Positions 28,689 to 37,299 of a stretch of DNA of 64,000 bases are shown here, piece after piece. This DNA comes from Terasakiispira papahanaumokuakeensis (GTDB lineage Bacteria; Pseudomonadota; Gammaproteobacteria; Pseudomonadales; Halomonadaceae). Position 1 is the stretch's first letter. Every line of letters starts with the position of its first letter. Under the pieces are notes generated by a model that was given only the letters and a program-made list of their open reading frames with translations, had not been told where the DNA came from and searched no databases. The stretch lies in contig NZ_MDTQ01000001.1 in assembly GCF_001709345.1 (NCBI RefSeq), positions 2,455,202-2,519,201 of the forward strand, written 5' to 3'. Made by a program: the position numbers and the translations under genes.

Positions 28689-29948
28689 ATGGCGAAGAAG
28701 AATGCCTTTTACGCCCAGTCCGGTGGGGTTACCGCCGTCATCAATGCCAGTGCCTGTGGTGTCATCGAGGCGGCACGCCGCCACTCAGACCAGATTGGCA
28801 CCGTCTACGCCGGACGTAACGGTATCATTGGGGCGCTGACAGAAGCCCTGATCGATACTTCTACTCTGAGCGATGAAGATGTTGCCGCTCTACGCCATAC
28901 GCCAGGGGGCGCCTTTGGCTCCTGCCGTTATAAATTAAAAGATATTGACGCGCACCGGGCACAATATGAACGCCTGATTGAAGTCTTCAAAGCCCACAAT
29001 ATCGGCTACTTCTTTTATAACGGGGGCAATGACTCTGCCGACACCTGCCTGAAGGTGTCAAAACTGGCGGAAACCATGGGCTATCCACTGCAAGCCATCC
29101 ATGTCCCGAAAACAGTGGATAACGACTTGCCGGTGACGGATAACTGCCCAGGTTTTGGCTCAGTGGCCAAATATATTGCCATCTCTACCCGCGAAGCAGC
29201 ACTGGATATCGCCTCCATGTGCGCGACCTCAACCAAGGTGTTTATCCTTGAAGTGATGGGGCGTCACGCGGGCTGGATTGCCGGTGCCGGTGGTCTTGCC
29301 GCCGAGAAAGAAGGCGATGCGCCACACCTGATCATTTTTCCGGAAATCGCGTTTGATCGCCAAAAAGTCATGGCGAAAATTGACCAAAGCGTTAAAGATC
29401 ATGGCTACTGCGTCATCGTCGTTTCGGAAGGCGCTCGCTATGAAGAGGGCACTTTCCTCGCCGATGCAGGATCAGTCGATGCCTTCGGCCATAAGCAACT
29501 CGGTGGCGTCGCGCCGACCTTAGCGGGCATGGTCCGTGAAGACCTCGGTTATAAATATCACTGGGCGGTTGCCGATTACCTGCAACGCGCCGCACGACAC
29601 ATCGCCTCTGAAACTGACGTTCAACAGGCTTATGCCGTAGGTCAAAAAGCCGTTGAACTGGCACTGGCAGGCCGTAACTCCGTCATGCCGACCATTGTTC
29701 GAGAAGAAAGCGAAACCTATCAATGGCACGTCGGTGAGGTTGCACTATCAGATGTAGCCAACGTGGAAAAATTTATGCCGCGTGATTACATCACTGAAGA
29801 TGGTTTCGGCATTTCCGACGCGGGCCGGGCTTACCTGCAACCGCTAATTCAAGGCGAGTGCATTCCGCCGTTTAAAAACGGCATGCCTGTCTATGTTGAG
29901 TTAGAACACCAATTGGTCGAGCGCAAACTGCCTGATTTTGAGGTTTAA
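28689..29948 (+). CDS. PPi-dependent 6-phosphofructokinase
   Basis: Phosphofructokinase using pyrophosphate, a reversible step of glycolysis. It has 419 residues. The substrate loop is PKTVDNDLPVTD, with catalytic aspartates and the lysine seen in PPi-type enzymes, followed by EVMGRHAGW. The nucleotide-site loop reads GGNDSADT, where ATP enzymes have GGDGS; aspartate/asparagine here is a mark of the PPi type. The final residues form VYVELEHQLVERKLP. It is cytoplasmic and alone in its transcription unit, with a strong terminator at 30083-30118. Confidence 0.88.
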   Translation: MAKKNAFYAQSGGVTAVINASACGVIEAARRHSDQIGTVYAGRNGIIGALTEALIDTSTLSDEDVAALRHTPGGAFGSCRYKLKDIDAHRAQYERLIEVFKAHNIGYFFYNGGNDSADTCLKVSKLAETMGYPLQAIHVPKTVDNDLPVTDNCPGFGSVAKYIAISTREAALDIASMCATSTKVFILEVMGRHAGWIAGAGGLAAEKEGDAPHLIIFPEIAFDRQKVMAKIDQSVKDHGYCVIVVSEGARYEEGTFLADAGSVDAFGHKQLGGVAPTLAGMVREDLGYKYHWAVADYLQRAARHIASETDVQQAYAVGQKAVELALAGRNSVMPTIVREESETYQWHVGEVALSDVANVEKFMPRDYITEDGFGISDAGRAYLQPLIQGECIPPFKNGMPVYVELEHQLVERKLPDFEV

Positions 29949-30170: not shown

Positions 30171-31391
30171 TCAAGAAACGTCATGACATCCCGCGCGGTC
30201 ATCACGGTGGTCGGGCAACTTAACACGACGTTCAGCCGCTTGAGAAGCGAAGAAGATCAGCATCCCTAGCAAGGCCAAACCCGCGCCCACCCAACCCGTA
30301 GAAGACCATTCAAACCCCGCTTTAACCGTCAAACCCGCCAACCAAGCACCTAACGCATTCGCCATATTAAAGGCCGCATGATTCAGTGACGCAGCCATGG
30401 TTTGGGCATCTTCGGCCACATCCATCAAACGTGTTTGCATCGCAGGCGCCACCCCGATACAAGTACCGACTAACGCCACAAATAAAAGGCCGCTCCACAA
30501 GGCATTCGCAGCAAAGAAGAAACCACTTTGTACCAGAATGCACCAGCCTAACATCAGAGGAATCGCTTTCAGCAAATTCCAATCAGTCAGTCGCCCACCC
30601 AACAAGTTACCGATAATGGTTCCCACACCAAACACGGCAAGCACGATAGGACCCAGCGATTGAGGCATACCGGCTTGCGCCGTTAAGGTCGGCACCACAT
30701 AACTGAAGACAGCAAAGACACCGCCACATCCCATGCAGGCAATGGCTAACGTCGACAGTACGCGCGGTTTAATTAACGCCGTCATTTCCCGTTTAGGGCT
30801 GGCCTGGTGATCAATCGGCTGGCGCAACACCCAAAAGTGCACCATCACCATGGTCATTAAAGCGATCACGCCGACACCCGCAAATGCCACCTGCCAGCCC
30901 ATTAAATTACCAGCCCAAGTCGCCAAGGGGGCACCCAGCAAGATGGCGACCGATAGGCCGCTCATCACACGGCCAATGGCCCGGCCTCGCTCCTGTACCG
31001 GCACGGCAGCGGCGGCCACCAAAGCGGCAACACCAAAATAAGCCCCATGCGGCAAACCGGCAATAAACCGTAACGCCACAAAAGACCAAAACCCTGGGGC
31101 CATAATGCTGGCAAAGTTGCCGATCGCAAAAAGCAACATCAGCGTGATCAACAACCCCTTACGAGGCACTCGGGCGGCGAGAGCCGAAATAATCGGTGCT
31201 CCCACGACCACCCCAAGAGCATAGCTGCTGATGGCATACCCCACATCGGGGACGTCAATCGCGAAATCATGGGCAACCCGCTCCATCAGCCCCATGATGA
31301 CAAACTCTCCAGTACCGATACCAAACCCGCCCAGCGCAAGCGCTAACTCAGCCCAGCGAGGCGATCGACGCGGCATGCCAGTCGACGACAT
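30171..31391 (-). CDS. MFS transporter, AraJ/sugar-efflux-like
   Basis: A protein of 406 residues with twelve predicted membrane helices. It belongs to the DHA1-type drug and sugar efflux group, shown by GGFGIGTGEFVIMGLMERVA, SSYALGVVVGAP and LPHGAYFGVAALVAA with RGRAIGRVMSGLS after it. The substrate cannot be told from sequence; arabinose/sugar efflux and chloramphenicol export occur in the family. The ATG at 31391 was taken because GGGAG precedes it. It probably works as a proton-driven exporter in the inner membrane and stands alone. Confidence 0.85.
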   Translation of the reverse strand: MSSTGMPRRSPRWAELALALGGFGIGTGEFVIMGLMERVAHDFAIDVPDVGYAISSYALGVVVGAPIISALAARVPRKGLLITLMLLFAIGNFASIMAPGFWSFVALRFIAGLPHGAYFGVAALVAAAAVPVQERGRAIGRVMSGLSVAILLGAPLATWAGNLMGWQVAFAGVGVIALMTMVMVHFWVLRQPIDHQASPKREMTALIKPRVLSTLAIACMGCGGVFAVFSYVVPTLTAQAGMPQSLGPIVLAVFGVGTIIGNLLGGRLTDWNLLKAIPLMLGWCILVQSGFFFAANALWSGLLFVALVGTCIGVAPAMQTRLMDVAEDAQTMAASLNHAAFNMANALGAWLAGLTVKAGFEWSSTGWVGAGLALLGMLIFFASQAAERRVKLPDHRDDRAGCHDVS

Positions 31392-31539: not shown

Positions 31540-31590
31540 CAGTCATTAAGACCACCCAGTCATTAAGACCACCCAGCCGTTAAGACCACC
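31540..31590. repeat. Three-copy 17-bp tandem repeat across a stop codon
   Basis: CAGTCATTAAGACCACC occurs twice exactly and once as CAGCCGTTAAGACCACC. The third copy includes the stop and last codons (WWS) of the leftward gene at 31580-33316, so the other copies look like outward duplications of that 3' end. Confidence 0.85.
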
Positions 31591-33316
31591 AAGTCACCAG
31601 CAACAAAATCAACAACAGTGCACTCAGGATTTTCCAAAAGGCTAAAGGATTGCGCTCCAGCAAAGGCGCATCCGCCGGTGCGGTAAAATCTGGATTGGGC
31701 TTTTTCAAGTCATAAATAAACTCAGAAAGACGCCGATAGCGTAACTCAGGGTTAGGCTGTAGCGCCTTACGCAGTGCGCCATCCATCCAGGCTGGAATCA
31801 TGGGATTATATTGGCAACTAGGTTCGTAATGTAAACGCGTAAAATCCACTTTGCTCTGCATATTTTCCAATTGGCCGGCATAAGGCTTGTGTCCACACAA
31901 GACTTCATAGGCAATCGCGGCAATCGAAAACTGATCACTACGCGGCCCGGGTTCACGGCCCAAACGATATTCCGGTGCCGAATAAGGGGTCAGTCCCGCA
32001 CTTCTGACCAAGGTTAAAGGTGCAGGCAAGTCAGGCAAACTGGGCACAGTCGCGACAGCAAAATCAATGAGCTTTAACATGCCTTGACCATCCACCAGCA
32101 GATTATCTGGCGTCAGTCGTTGATGCAGCACATCACGCCGATGGAGTGCACGCACGGCTTTAACTAACTGCTCAATCAAATCCAACCGCGTTTTTAAATC
32201 CGCTTGCGGATGCTCTGCACACCACTGCTCCAACGGAATGCCATGGACCCGCTCCATTAAGAAATACAAGCAACTCCGGGGACGAGACACATCGACCGCT
32301 TTAGCCACATAAGGGGACTGCACTCGCTCCAGCAGCCACTGTTGCATAATAAAATGGGCGAGGAAATCACGCCGCTGAGATAGCTGAGGCGCTGGGGCTT
32401 TTAACACCATTTCACGCCCGCTGGACATATCTGTGACGGCATAAATACGACTGGTTTGGCTACGCGATAAAACTTCATTAATGCGATAACCATCGACTTC
32501 CTCGCCCTCAGACAGCTCAACCGGCAAAGGCAGTGAGGAGTAAACCTCACCTAGCGTATTATCGGTTTCTGCAGGTAATTGATCGACCCGCACCAACTGA
32601 AAGCAGAAGTTCTGACTCGAATAGCCCCGAGCACTGGCTTTTTCAACCGCTTTTTCCAAAATCATGTCACAGGCTTGGTGTAAATCCTGTGAGTATTGCC
32701 GGATCAACTGAACAAAATCACTGGGCATCAGCGTCCCCTTGACCGACTGAGTGGTCATCAAGAAGATGTCGCCCTGCTTTAGGTTAAATTCCATAAAGTC
32801 GATATCGAGACTAGGGTCCATCCCCAAGGCTCGAGAAGGATAACGATAGCCGCCTAAAAGGGTGGTGTGCTCTCGGTTTAACTGTTCAAACTCAGCACCG
32901 CGCAGACGAAAGACCAGCGTATCCCCCATATGAAAAAGGTGTCCGACTCTTCCCCGCAGCACCAGCCCTGAAAAAGAGCTGATATAGTTGCCTTGCACCA
33001 TCTGACGGCTTTGCGCGTAGAGCCAGCCATTCAAGGCACCCAAGACTCGGTTTGCAGAGGTTTTGACATCCCAATTATCCGGTGTCGCAAAGTAATCGGC
33101 CATAAACCCGCGGACACAGGTTTCACCAGCCTGTTTCGCTTTCACATTGCGCCAAGTCGAATCGGCCATCGCTGCCGCCACCCCTTTGGTCGCCAATAAC
33201 GAATCTTCGGGCATCTGCACCGCCATGGCAGACCGCGCACTACGATGATCCAGTGCTCGATAGGCCTGGCCAATACTGACCGCCAGATGTCCTAGTTGCA
33301 TGGTCATTTCAGTCAC
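31580..33316 (-). CDS. PP2C-like/protein-kinase-like fusion, both domains apparently inactive
   Basis: A protein of 578 residues: PP2C-type phosphatase domain (about 10-245), Ser/Thr-kinase domain (about 275-530) and a C-terminal membrane helix (559-577). The architecture matches the bifunctional kinase/phosphatase often found near nitrate transport genes. In the phosphatase, the first metal motif is absent, DG reads DS at 52-53, TDG reads TQS at 189-191 and DN reads QN at 235-236. In the kinase, the lysine is kept (K306), but HRD reads HQR at 398-400 and DFG reads DFA. I infer a scaffold or sensor protein. The start is a GTG with GAGG before it; ATGs lie three and five codons later. It is divergent from ppa. 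Confidence 0.85.
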   Translation of the reverse strand: MTEMTMQLGHLAVSIGQAYRALDHRSARSAMAVQMPEDSLLATKGVAAAMADSTWRNVKAKQAGETCVRGFMADYFATPDNWDVKTSANRVLGALNGWLYAQSRQMVQGNYISSFSGLVLRGRVGHLFHMGDTLVFRLRGAEFEQLNREHTTLLGGYRYPSRALGMDPSLDIDFMEFNLKQGDIFLMTTQSVKGTLMPSDFVQLIRQYSQDLHQACDMILEKAVEKASARGYSSQNFCFQLVRVDQLPAETDNTLGEVYSSLPLPVELSEGEEVDGYRINEVLSRSQTSRIYAVTDMSSGREMVLKAPAPQLSQRRDFLAHFIMQQWLLERVQSPYVAKAVDVSRPRSCLYFLMERVHGIPLEQWCAEHPQADLKTRLDLIEQLVKAVRALHRRDVLHQRLTPDNLLVDGQGMLKLIDFAVATVPSLPDLPAPLTLVRSAGLTPYSAPEYRLGREPGPRSDQFSIAAIAYEVLCGHKPYAGQLENMQSKVDFTRLHYEPSCQYNPMIPAWMDGALRKALQPNPELRYRRLSEFIYDLKKPNPDFTAPADAPLLERNPLAFWKILSALLLILLLVTWWS

Positions 33317-33600: not shown

Positions 33601-34128
33601 ATGAGCTACAACCAAGTACCGGCAGGACGCGCCCTGCCTGATGATCTGAATGTCATTATCGAAATCCCGGCGAACCACGCGCCGATTAAATATGAAATCG
33701 ACAAGGATATGGATGCCTTGGTGGTTGACCGTTTCATGGCCACCCCCATGTTCTACCCCGCTAACTATGGATTCATTCCGCAAACCCTAGGCGACGACGG
33801 CGACCCACTGGATGTCCTGGTCGTCACCCCCTACCCGGTTGAACCCGGTTCAGTCATTCGCTGCCGCCCGGTCGGTGTCCTCAACATGACCGACGAAGCC
33901 GGTGAAGATGCCAAACTGGTTGCCGTTCCCCATAGCAAACTGACGCCAATCTATGACGACATCAAAGACGTGGAAGACCTGCCGCAATTACTGCGCGATC
34001 AGATCACCCACTTCTTCGAGCGCTACAAAGATCTAGAAAAAGGCAAATGGGTCAAAATCGAAAGCTGGGCAAATGCTGAAGCGGCTCGTGAAGCGATCAA
34101 AAAAGCGGAAGCGGCTTACCATCAGTAA
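33601..34128 (+). CDS. ppa: Inorganic pyrophosphatase
   Basis: Family I pyrophosphatase, hydrolysing PPi to phosphate in the cytoplasm. It has 175 residues, the E. coli-type size. The metal-binding signature is DGDPLDVLV, preceded by [12 protein letters not shown] and followed by [13 protein letters not shown]. The start at 33601 agrees with the family; upstream sequence in the same frame has no relatives. A clear terminator follows at 34174-34207. With a PPi-type phosphofructokinase 3.6 kb away, this cell has two users of pyrophosphate. Confidence 0.97.
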
Positions 34129-34222: not shown

Positions 34223-35851
34223 TCAAGCCTTGTGATCATGGCTGCGCCCTTTGGTCGCATCAAAACGCTCAATCATCCCCTCAAGCTCTTGTGACATTTG
34301 CTCGAGCGACTGCGCTGACGATAAACCTTGCGCTCCCGTACTCATCAGCGCCTCAGCAGCTTCATGCACATCATGAATATACTGAGACATCTGCGTCACT
34401 TCTTCTTGCTGTTGCGTCACTGCCGTTGAAATAGACCGATTCATTTCATCCAGCGTTTCATTCGATGCCGCCATGGTCTCCACTTGTTCACTGAGCTGAG
34501 ACATTTGCTCAATCCCAGTGCGCAGTTGCTGCTGTGTCTGATTCATACGATGGGTCAGTTGGGCCGCCACTTGCTGAAAACCCGATACCCGCTGCTCAAT
34601 TCCCGCAGCAGATTCATGTGAGCGCTGGGCCAATTGCCTCACTTCATCGGCAACAACTGCAAACCCACGACCATGTTCACCCGCACGTGCGGCCTCAATC
34701 GCAGCATTCAAGGCCAGCAAGTTGGTCTGATCCGAAAGGCCCGTAATCAGTTCAACCATATGGTGGATGGTCTCGACGTGACCATCCAATGTTTGGGTCA
34801 ACTCATCCACTTCGTCCAGCTGCACCGCACTATCGGTAAAGGCTTGCTGGGTTTCACTCAGCACTTGCAAACTATTGCGTTGAATGTGGCGTGTCTGCTG
34901 CGACATTTCCGCGGCCTGAGCACACCGTTCATCCATTTCCAAAAAAGTCCCCTGTAACGTGCCCATCGCCTGAGAGACTTGCTGCGTCTGCTGCTGTTGA
35001 TGCTCCAACGCTTGTTGCACCTTGCCCAGATCACGCACGAGATCGGCGGCATGATCTTCAACCCGCCAAGCCGCATCCCCCACGCGGTCAATAATGGTCG
35101 CCTGTTGTAAACGTGCAAATTTAAGCGCTAACGCCAAGCTGCCCACGTCATCATCTCGTCCGGTATACAAACGCTGCAGCAAGGGATCATGGAAGTAGGC
35201 CTGGGATTGCTCCACGACATGTTGCAAAGGCAATGCCATTCGATAGGTCAAAGCCCACAAAAAAACAATGGTCGCCGGCAATAACACCGCAATATCCAGC
35301 CAACCAGGATCAACTCGCCAAGCCCAACCGGCCAATAGCGCTAAGACGGGCACCAGCAGCCCAATAAATAAGCGCGGCGCTAGAGACAAACGCCGCCACC
35401 AGCGCGGGCGATAACGCCAGTGACGCACATCCTGCTGCGCATGAAGCTGAGCATAAAGGACTTCGGCCTGAGCTTGATCTTGTGGCTCAACCGCATGACG
35501 CACAGACTGATAGCCGACCAGCTCACCTGACTCAATAATGGGCGAGATATGGGCATTCACCCAATAGTGGTCGCCGTTGGCACAGCGATTTTTGACCACC
35601 CCAATCCAGGTTTGACCTGCTTGCAATGTTCGCCAAAGGTGGGCAAATACCACACGCGGCATATCCGGATGACGGATCACGTTATGAGGCTGGCCAATCA
35701 GCTGGGCACGGTCATAGCCACTGATTTCACAGAAATAATCATTACAAGAAGTGATTTTACCGCGAACATCAGTATTAGAAATAATACAGCGCTGAGGGTC
35801 GACTTCGATATTACGCTGTGTTGTATGCTGCTGGTGATTAGGTGAGGCCAT
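34223..35851 (-). CDS. PAS-containing methyl-accepting chemoreceptor (Aer-like)
   Basis: A protein of 542 residues. A cytoplasmic N-terminal PAS domain (about 15-120) has [20 protein letters not shown], the Aer-type FAD or haem-binding form. A hydrophobic pair (about 165-210) anchors it in the inner membrane. The long coiled-coil signalling domain has the conserved hairpin [20 protein letters not shown], followed by [12 protein letters not shown]. There is no periplasmic sensor, so it should sense redox or energy state from inside, as Aer does. No CheR/CheB-binding pentapeptide is seen at the end. The gene stands alone and is convergent with ppa. Confidence 0.9.
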
Positions 35852-36240: not shown

Positions 36241-37299
36241 TTATCCGCGATTGAGCAGCTCTTGTAGATCGATCAGGGCAGCATTGGCACGAGCCAAATA
36301 AGACGCCATAACTAAAGAATGATTGGCAAAAATGCCAAAGCCACTGCCATTGAGAATGATGGGGCTGCCCAGCGGCTGCTGTGTAGATTCCAATTCACGG
36401 ATAATTTGCCGCAAGCTGACTCGTGCATTTTTATCATCCAGCACGCTACCAAAATCCTGCTCAACGGCCTTCAGTAGGTGGATCAAGGCCCATGCAGTCC
36501 CTCTCGCTTCGTAAAAAACATCATCGATCTGGGACCAACTGGTCTTGACCATCACTTCATCGGGTTCTTTTTTACTCGAAGTCGCGCTACGGTCATTCGC
36601 CAATGCAATATTGATACGTGATTGACCAACACTGGCCGCAAGACGCTGAGATAAGCTACCCAAACGGGTACCGACATCCGCTAGCCAGCGCTCAAGATTG
36701 TCTGCGCGCGCATAAAAACGCGCATTTTGCGGATCATCATCCTGCAAGCGAGTCAAATAATCACGTAGATCCTTACGTGCTTTGCTGTACTCCTGCTCAG
36801 CGGAAGGGAACATCCAGGCACTGGCATTCACAAACAATAGCGATTCGGCATCGGATAACGCCTTATCTTCCGCTGACTGAGTCTGAGAGCGACTGATATC
36901 TCGACGCATGGCTCGCGCCATATCACGCGTTTGTACTAATACGCCGTACTCCCAGGCGGGCATGTTGTCCAACCAAAGCCCAGGGGGAAACATGTCATTA
37001 CGCAGATAGCCGCCCGGCTTATCCAGTAATGAATCAATCAGATGAACTAATGTCGCGGTGGTGGTCACCCCTTGACGCAATTGCCCCTCTGGCCCAATGC
37101 CCACTTCTTTTCGAGCTTGAGTCTTCACATCAAATAAATCGGGCGTACTGCTCCACCACATCCCCACCCCTAAGGCACCGATGAGGTAAGCACCTACAAC
37201 CAACAGCACGACTCGGCTGATCCAACCCATCCGACTCAGAGCATGTCGGCCCTTAGACCAAAGCTTGCGCATCGTAACGATCTCCATGACATAACGCAT
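36241..37299 (-). CDS. DUF2333 family membrane-anchored protein
   Basis: A protein of 352 residues with one N-terminal membrane helix (about 25-48); the rest probably faces the periplasm. Segments GVTTTATLVHLIDSLLDKPGG, NDMFPPGLWLDNMPAWEYG and FGIFANHSLVMASYLARANA are typical of DUF2333, a gammaproteobacterial family of unknown function. AGAGGTGAT before the ATG at 37299 supports the longest start; methionines five and ten residues in are alternatives. It shows no enzyme motif. It stands alone between the chemoreceptor and the divergent dsbD. Confidence 0.87.
   Translation of the reverse strand: MRYVMEIVTMRKLWSKGRHALSRMGWISRVVLLVVGAYLIGALGVGMWWSSTPDLFDVKTQARKEVGIGPEGQLRQGVTTTATLVHLIDSLLDKPGGYLRNDMFPPGLWLDNMPAWEYGVLVQTRDMARAMRRDISRSQTQSAEDKALSDAESLLFVNASAWMFPSAEQEYSKARKDLRDYLTRLQDDDPQNARFYARADNLERWLADVGTRLGSLSQRLAASVGQSRINIALANDRSATSSKKEPDEVMVKTSWSQIDDVFYEARGTAWALIHLLKAVEQDFGSVLDDKNARVSLRQIIRELESTQQPLGSPIILNGSGFGIFANHSLVMASYLARANAALIDLQELLNRG

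Follow-up and report, generated by a model that had tools for sequence, protein, structure and literature searches.

A PP2C-kinase fusion beside ppa has very probably lost both of its catalytic activities and is retained throughout a gammaproteobacterial family

The stretch of DNA analysed here (the window) comprises 64,000 nucleotides of contig NZ_MDTQ01000001.1 of Terasakiispira papahanaumokuakeensis, and the features of the locus under study are collected in Table 1. A reverse-strand frame of 578 codons is open from a GTG at 33316 to the stop at 31580, with a stop-to-stop length of 591 aa, and translation could instead start at an ATG at residue 4 or 6. A preliminary description, made from the letters of the window, had read this frame as an intact fusion of a PP2C phosphatase and a protein kinase in which both catalytic centres were lost; the intact fusion is borne out by the open frame and by a structure model in which both folds are found.

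Table 1. Features of the locus, with positions counted from the first nucleotide of the window
Feature	Position	Strand	Remarks
Gene of the predicted dual pseudoenzyme (PP2C-like domain, Hanks kinase-like domain, membrane helix at the C-terminus)	31580..33316	(-)	578 aa, GTG start
PP2C-fold domain, predicted pseudophosphatase, residues 12-245	32582..33283	(-)	structure-model match to PP2C phosphatases
PP2C motif 1, N-E/Q-D to A27-R28-S29, lost	33230..33238	(-)	Arg28 invariant in clade
DG to D52-S53, Asp kept	33158..33163	(-)	D52 = tPphA D34 by alignment
GDS to G131-D132-T133, kept	32918..32926	(-)	D132 in 97/97
TDG to T189-Q190-S191, metal Asp lost	32744..32752	(-)	D190 in 0/97 of clade, 91/91 outside
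DN to Q235-N236 in window	32609..32614	(-)	position D or E in 68/97 clade members
Hanks kinase-fold domain, predicted pseudokinase, residues 267-542	31691..32518	(-)	PF00069 8e-25; PknB Z 19.5
beta3 Lys306, kept	32399..32401	(-)	92/97
alphaC Glu to Gln325	32342..32344	(-)	Gln in 97/97
Catalytic loop H398-Q399-R400-L-T-P-D-N405	32102..32125	(-)	catalytic Asp lost (D400 in 0/97 vs 91/91), Asn kept
DFG to D418-F419-A420	32057..32065	(-)	Mg-binding Asp kept
C-terminal membrane helix, residues 557-577	31586..31648	(-)	block pLDDT about 85-91
ppa, inorganic diphosphatase, divergent neighbour	33601..34128	(+)	NF002317 2e-87
pfp, diphosphate-fructose-6-phosphate phosphotransferase, ancestral neighbourhood	28689..29948	(+)	NF010675

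The structure of the window protein was taken from an AlphaFold model built on an eight-sequence alignment, which is of moderate quality (mean pLDDT 65.7). Its N-terminal domain resembles the solved PP2C phosphatases 2pk0 (Z 23.0), PppA (6jkv, Z 22.3) and tPphA (Z 22), and the domain that follows resembles PknB-type kinases, with Z values reaching 19.5. Because the model matches solved structures in this way, we conclude that a PP2C fold and a Hanks kinase fold are both present, in this order, with the membrane helix after them; the helix is hydrophobic in 93 of 97 orthologues. The Pkinase match (PF00069) spans residues 280-527. In contrast to active homologues, in which PP2C_2 was matched at 5e-15 and 1e-14, no Pfam PP2C model matched the PP2C half of the window protein, even at E<=0.1.

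Homologues were collected from the GTDB family of the window (Halomonadaceae, to which Marinospirillum also belongs) and from its order, and the catalytic positions were tabulated in an alignment of 188 distinct full-length proteins. The dead set consists of 97 distinct orthologues from the window's family, and the comparison set of 91 homologues from outside this clade, a number that includes the second copies carried by about a dozen of the family genomes. Identity to the window protein divides the two sets by a gap (at least 43% in the dead set, at most 41% in the active set). N27 and D29 of motif 1, G53 of DG, D190 of TDG, the alphaC Glu at 325 and the catalytic Asp at 400 are absent from every member of the dead set (97/97), and each is kept in 91/91 homologues outside the clade. 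This pattern rules out chance or alignment artefact as the source of the losses, and it rules out a loss peculiar to the genome of the window, being common to the whole family.

In place of the PP2C metal-site motifs N-E/Q-D, DG, TDG and DN, the window protein has ARS, DS, TQS and QN. The preliminary description counted three of the four motifs as changed (DG to DS, TDG to TQS and DN to QN); these residues are as it stated, but motif 1 is lost as well, so that all four classical motifs are altered, and the Asp of DG is kept. By alignment, D52, D132, Q190 and Q235 correspond to D34, D119, D193 and D231 of tPphA, which we take to be the metal ligands of that enzyme. Within the dead clade, D52 is kept in 96/97 sequences and D132 of GD[ST] in all, and the residue that replaces D190 is Gln, Arg or Pro. 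The change of DN to QN does not hold clade-wide, since the position is D or E in most members. Judging from these residues, D52, D132 and, where it is acidic (68/97), position 235 could retain metal. The domain thus combines a PP2C fold (Z 22-23) with missing metal-coordinating residues (D190 and motif 1), as expected of a pseudophosphatase, and keeps the equivalents of tPphA D34 and D119.

The kinase half of the window protein likewise lacks residues of the active enzyme, with R400 for the catalytic Asp and Q325 for the alphaC Glu. The replacement of the HRD Asp by Arg was correctly described; however, the usual motif of the active homologues is HQD rather than HRD (79/91), so Gln399 is ancestral and only the change from Asp to Arg at position 400 is a loss. 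Similarly, DFA is found in place of DFG in the window, but the Gly of this motif is kept in 39/97 orthologues, with Ser or Ala in most of the others. Since both positions vary, the changes of DFG to DFA and of DN to QN are rejected as signatures of the clade. Lys306, the PDN triplet (P403-D404-N405) and the membrane anchor, which the preliminary description listed as remaining, are all seen in the window, and across the dead clade K306 is kept in 92, N405 in 89 and D418 in 94 of the 97 sequences. A pseudokinase is a kinase fold from which at least one of the VAIK Lys, the HRD Asp and the DFG Asp is absent, and the Asp at the HRD position is missing in 97/97. At the same time, two replacements never vary within the dead clade, Arg28 in place of Glu/Gln and Gln325 in place of Glu, suggesting that some portions of the two former active sites are still important.

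All 24 genera and 100 of the 101 genomes of the family have an orthologue; the sole genome without one is 88% complete, and one of the matches is a fragment from a genome that is 77% complete. No internal stops were seen in the orthologous matches from these 100 genomes. The median dN/dS of the dead clade is 0.088 over 200 pairs, as estimated by a counting method with which distant pairs are saturated; by domain, the values are 0.043 for the dead PP2C domain, 0.076 for the kinase domain and 0.27 for the C-terminal tail. In matched pairs, dN/dS is 0.094 for the pseudoenzyme gene versus 0.040 for the neighbouring ppa. Since dN/dS is low and the gene is retained, purifying selection rather than decay is indicated. 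The many lost catalytic residues and the poorly conserved tail are what a gene on its way out would show, but the open frames, the low dN/dS in both domains, the invariant replacements Arg28 and Gln325 and the retention in every sampled genus argue against this explanation, which we regard as extremely improbable; random decay in particular is ruled out by dN/dS and retention. The alignment with active relatives and the dN/dS measurement that the preliminary description had proposed therefore both agree with its suggestion of a retained pseudoenzyme: the same residues are lost throughout one monophyletic clade and kept outside it, and both domains have a dN/dS far below 1. On the sequences compared, the protein is very probably a retained double pseudoenzyme.

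In 107 of 110 clade loci (a few of which repeat a genome already counted), ppa adjoins the gene divergently, and a frequent gene order in the clade is mpl-pfp-gene-ppa-DUF2333-dsbD. The DUF2333 protein, encoded in the window at 36241-37299 (2e-145), belongs in many relatives to the conserved surroundings of ppa. In the genome of the window, the mpl-pfp-gene-ppa-DUF2333 order is broken by an MFS transporter gene (30171-31391) and by a PAS/methyl-accepting chemotaxis gene (34223-35851). The pfp gene stands next to the pseudoenzyme gene in many relatives and is absent from the locus in many others, in which the pseudoenzyme gene is still there.

Parts of the same neighbourhood recur around some active homologues from other families of this order: L138 lies by ppa, L140, L116 and L036 lie by pfp, and L022 and L023 adjoin DUF2333. 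Because some active homologues share it, the ppa/pfp neighbourhood is older than the loss. In the phylogeny, the 97 dead proteins form one monophyletic clade with full support and a long stem, and omitting the catalytic columns does not change this. A grouping of this clade with the ppa/pfp-linked active homologues is absent from the free tree and is not rejected by the AU test (p 0.34); as the trees leave it unsettled, the case for loss in place rests on the shared neighbourhood, and catalytic loss in place at the ppa locus is the simplest history. Many other active PP2C-kinase fusions, for example L136 and L167, are encoded immediately downstream of a gene for a nitrate/nitrite transporter of the MFS or FNT type. 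As annotated by eye, an MFS transporter is upstream of 25/41 active homologues in the sister set and of 14/50 in the rest, and an FNT transporter is upstream of 21/50 in the rest, outside the sister set, suggesting an ancestral role of the active fusions in the control of nitrate/nitrite uptake.

The preliminary description further proposed a new signalling role next to ppa. The adjacency is confirmed; the signalling role is not, and the neighbourhood predates the loss. The protein may be linked to pyrophosphate metabolism, and the ppa neighbourhood may also be inherited and functionally neutral. A more specific version holds that an anionic metabolite (phosphate, pyrophosphate or a phosphopeptide) binds in the former PP2C cleft and is thereby coupled to the PPi-dependent metabolism next door (ppa, pfp). 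The replacement of acidic metal-site residues by the invariant Arg28 and by Gln, Arg or Pro at 190 would suit such a cleft, as would the divergent ppa and the pfp found alongside in many loci; against it stand the greater age of the neighbourhood, which active homologues share, and the persistence of the gene in many relatives whose locus lacks pfp. We consider this version, which is drawn from the residues and gene order, quite unlikely.

Whether the kinase-like domain still handles nucleotide bears on the function as well. The full set of Lys306, Asn405 and Asp418 is present in 87/97 orthologues, and the other ten have lost one or more of these residues. All three are lost in two sequences, L093 and L190 (K306R, N405T and D418H/F), and L086 has K306A and N405S; in these proteins the nucleotide-binding residues are gone and the frame is open. 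Since the ten orthologues are retained, nucleotide binding is not required everywhere, and the residue pattern makes it likely in the majority of lineages, with some lineages able to do without it. Position 400 is occupied by eight different residues across the dead clade, as would be expected of an abandoned catalytic site.

These residues also bear on the idea that the kinase-like domain is an ATP-using transferase of a different chemistry and hence no true pseudoenzyme. Activities such as the AMPylation by SelO and the glutamylation by SidJ are known for pseudokinases that have no HRD Asp (PMC12599244), and some other catalysis may therefore persist here; the retention of Lys, Asn and DFG Asp in most orthologues would fit a transferase. 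However, orthologues in which Lys, Asn and/or the DFG Asp is gone (R/T/H in L093, A/S/D in L086) are nonetheless retained, the variety of residues at position 400 implies that no new catalytic residue was fixed there, and the alphaC Glu is missing in all orthologues. A transferase is accordingly an unlikely reading.

The other kinases and phosphatases of the family are relevant to a further possibility, namely that the protein acts on an active Hanks kinase or PP2C, either as an allosteric partner or as a decoy, as pseudokinases and pseudophosphatases of eukaryotes often do. Pseudoenzymes are known to work by allosteric regulation and by competitive inhibition (PMC10211241), and roughly a dozen genomes of the family encode an active paralogue in addition. 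The pseudoenzyme is, however, the only PF00069 match at E<=1e-8 in 16 of 61 family genomes, and 41 of 61 have no PP2C_2 match at E<=0.001 (a search outside which SpoIIE-type and PF00481 phosphatases fall). In the genome of the window, PP2C_2 has no match, and a single further kinase-like protein passes the cut-off. As no other PF00069 match exists in the 16 genomes, the pseudoenzyme does not steer another detected Hanks kinase there and a role independent of one is required; with 41 genomes lacking a detected PP2C_2 as well, modulation of another Hanks kinase or PP2C cannot be the general role, and we judge this explanation improbable. The other kinase-like protein of the window's genome (L209, C1:2074912-2075508) has 651 aa with the motifs VHGDIKPSN and VDWGSS, and its gene directly follows a dihydrolipoamide-acyltransferase-like gene; many genomes of the family have PF00069 matches with a similar frame size, about 600-660 aa.

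The explanation that we favour, with moderate confidence for the account as a whole, is that the double pseudoenzyme is kept as a non-catalytic membrane scaffold or sensor. Both catalytic centres of a membrane-anchored PP2C-kinase fusion would have been lost once, in the family's ancestor; the gene probably already had its chromosomal place beside ppa at that time, and it would since have been retained for a non-catalytic job. The protein may be a tail-anchored cytoplasmic scaffold or sensor, in which the kinase-like domain would still hold nucleotide in most lineages, by way of Lys306, Asn405 and Asp418, and switch shape, and in which the tightly conserved PP2C-like domain, with its metal site made more basic by Arg28, would serve as a surface for binding a ligand or partner. 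A bolder extension makes the protein purely a binding device: the basic dead PP2C cleft would read phosphate, pyrophosphate or a phosphorylated partner, the dead kinase would report the nucleotide state, and the pair would regulate PPi-linked metabolism or a membrane partner. This extension is speculative and unlikely; if true, it would mean regulation by binding only, by a protein that can be the sole Hanks-fold protein detected.

The family is a clean natural experiment, in which opposing kinase and phosphatase activities very probably vanish at its base and the protein stays near-universal and constrained. In genomes with no other detected Hanks kinase, the non-catalytic function of a bacterial pseudokinase is directly testable. 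There is also a caution for annotators. The PP2C-kinase fusions of Pseudomonas and relatives are often annotated as bifunctional kinase/phosphatase. As Pfam does not recognise the dead PP2C half of the window protein, fusions like it risk being labelled as active protein kinases.

Fusions of PP2C and Ser/Thr kinase domains in Pseudomonas and relatives were first reported in 2005 (PMC1262709). They have the same order of PP2C and kinase in one polypeptide, the 2005 protein being likened to ours by domain order only. The fusion itself is therefore known; in a literature search that subscription papers mostly lay beyond, we found no earlier account of a doubly inactivated PP2C-kinase fusion conserved across a bacterial family, and it is this family-wide inactivation of both halves that appears to be new. 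The active homologues are 30-41% identical to the window protein, and most share its C-terminal membrane helix. They differ in having all catalytic residues (91/91) and in lying, in many cases, after a nitrate/nitrite transporter, whereas the dead clade has lost these residues and lies beside ppa.

A 2025 review describes seven bacterial pseudokinase families, ActPs1-3, GLW, CP1, DYD and DLHK (PMC12599244), which are also Hanks-fold domains predicted to be inactive; its text makes no mention of PP2C or Halomonas. Compared by the review's descriptions only, the divergence in those families affects either all three motifs or the motifs for ATP and metal binding, whereas the dead clade has lost the HRD Asp and the alphaC Glu, mostly keeps the Lys, the Asn and the DFG Asp, and is fused to a PP2C domain that is dead too. 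EssB/YukC of type VIIb secretion (PMC9600267) differs in that it does not bind ATP, is part of a secretion machine and has no PP2C domain described; it is likewise a membrane-anchored bacterial pseudokinase with a scaffold role, and it offers a possible working model. For the phosphatase half, a precedent is the pseudophosphatase PHLPP2 (PMC12002173), which is eukaryotic, fused to PH and LRR domains and without a kinase domain, but in which a PP2C-family domain was likewise inactivated once in an ancestor and retained, with a proposed role as a membrane scaffold.
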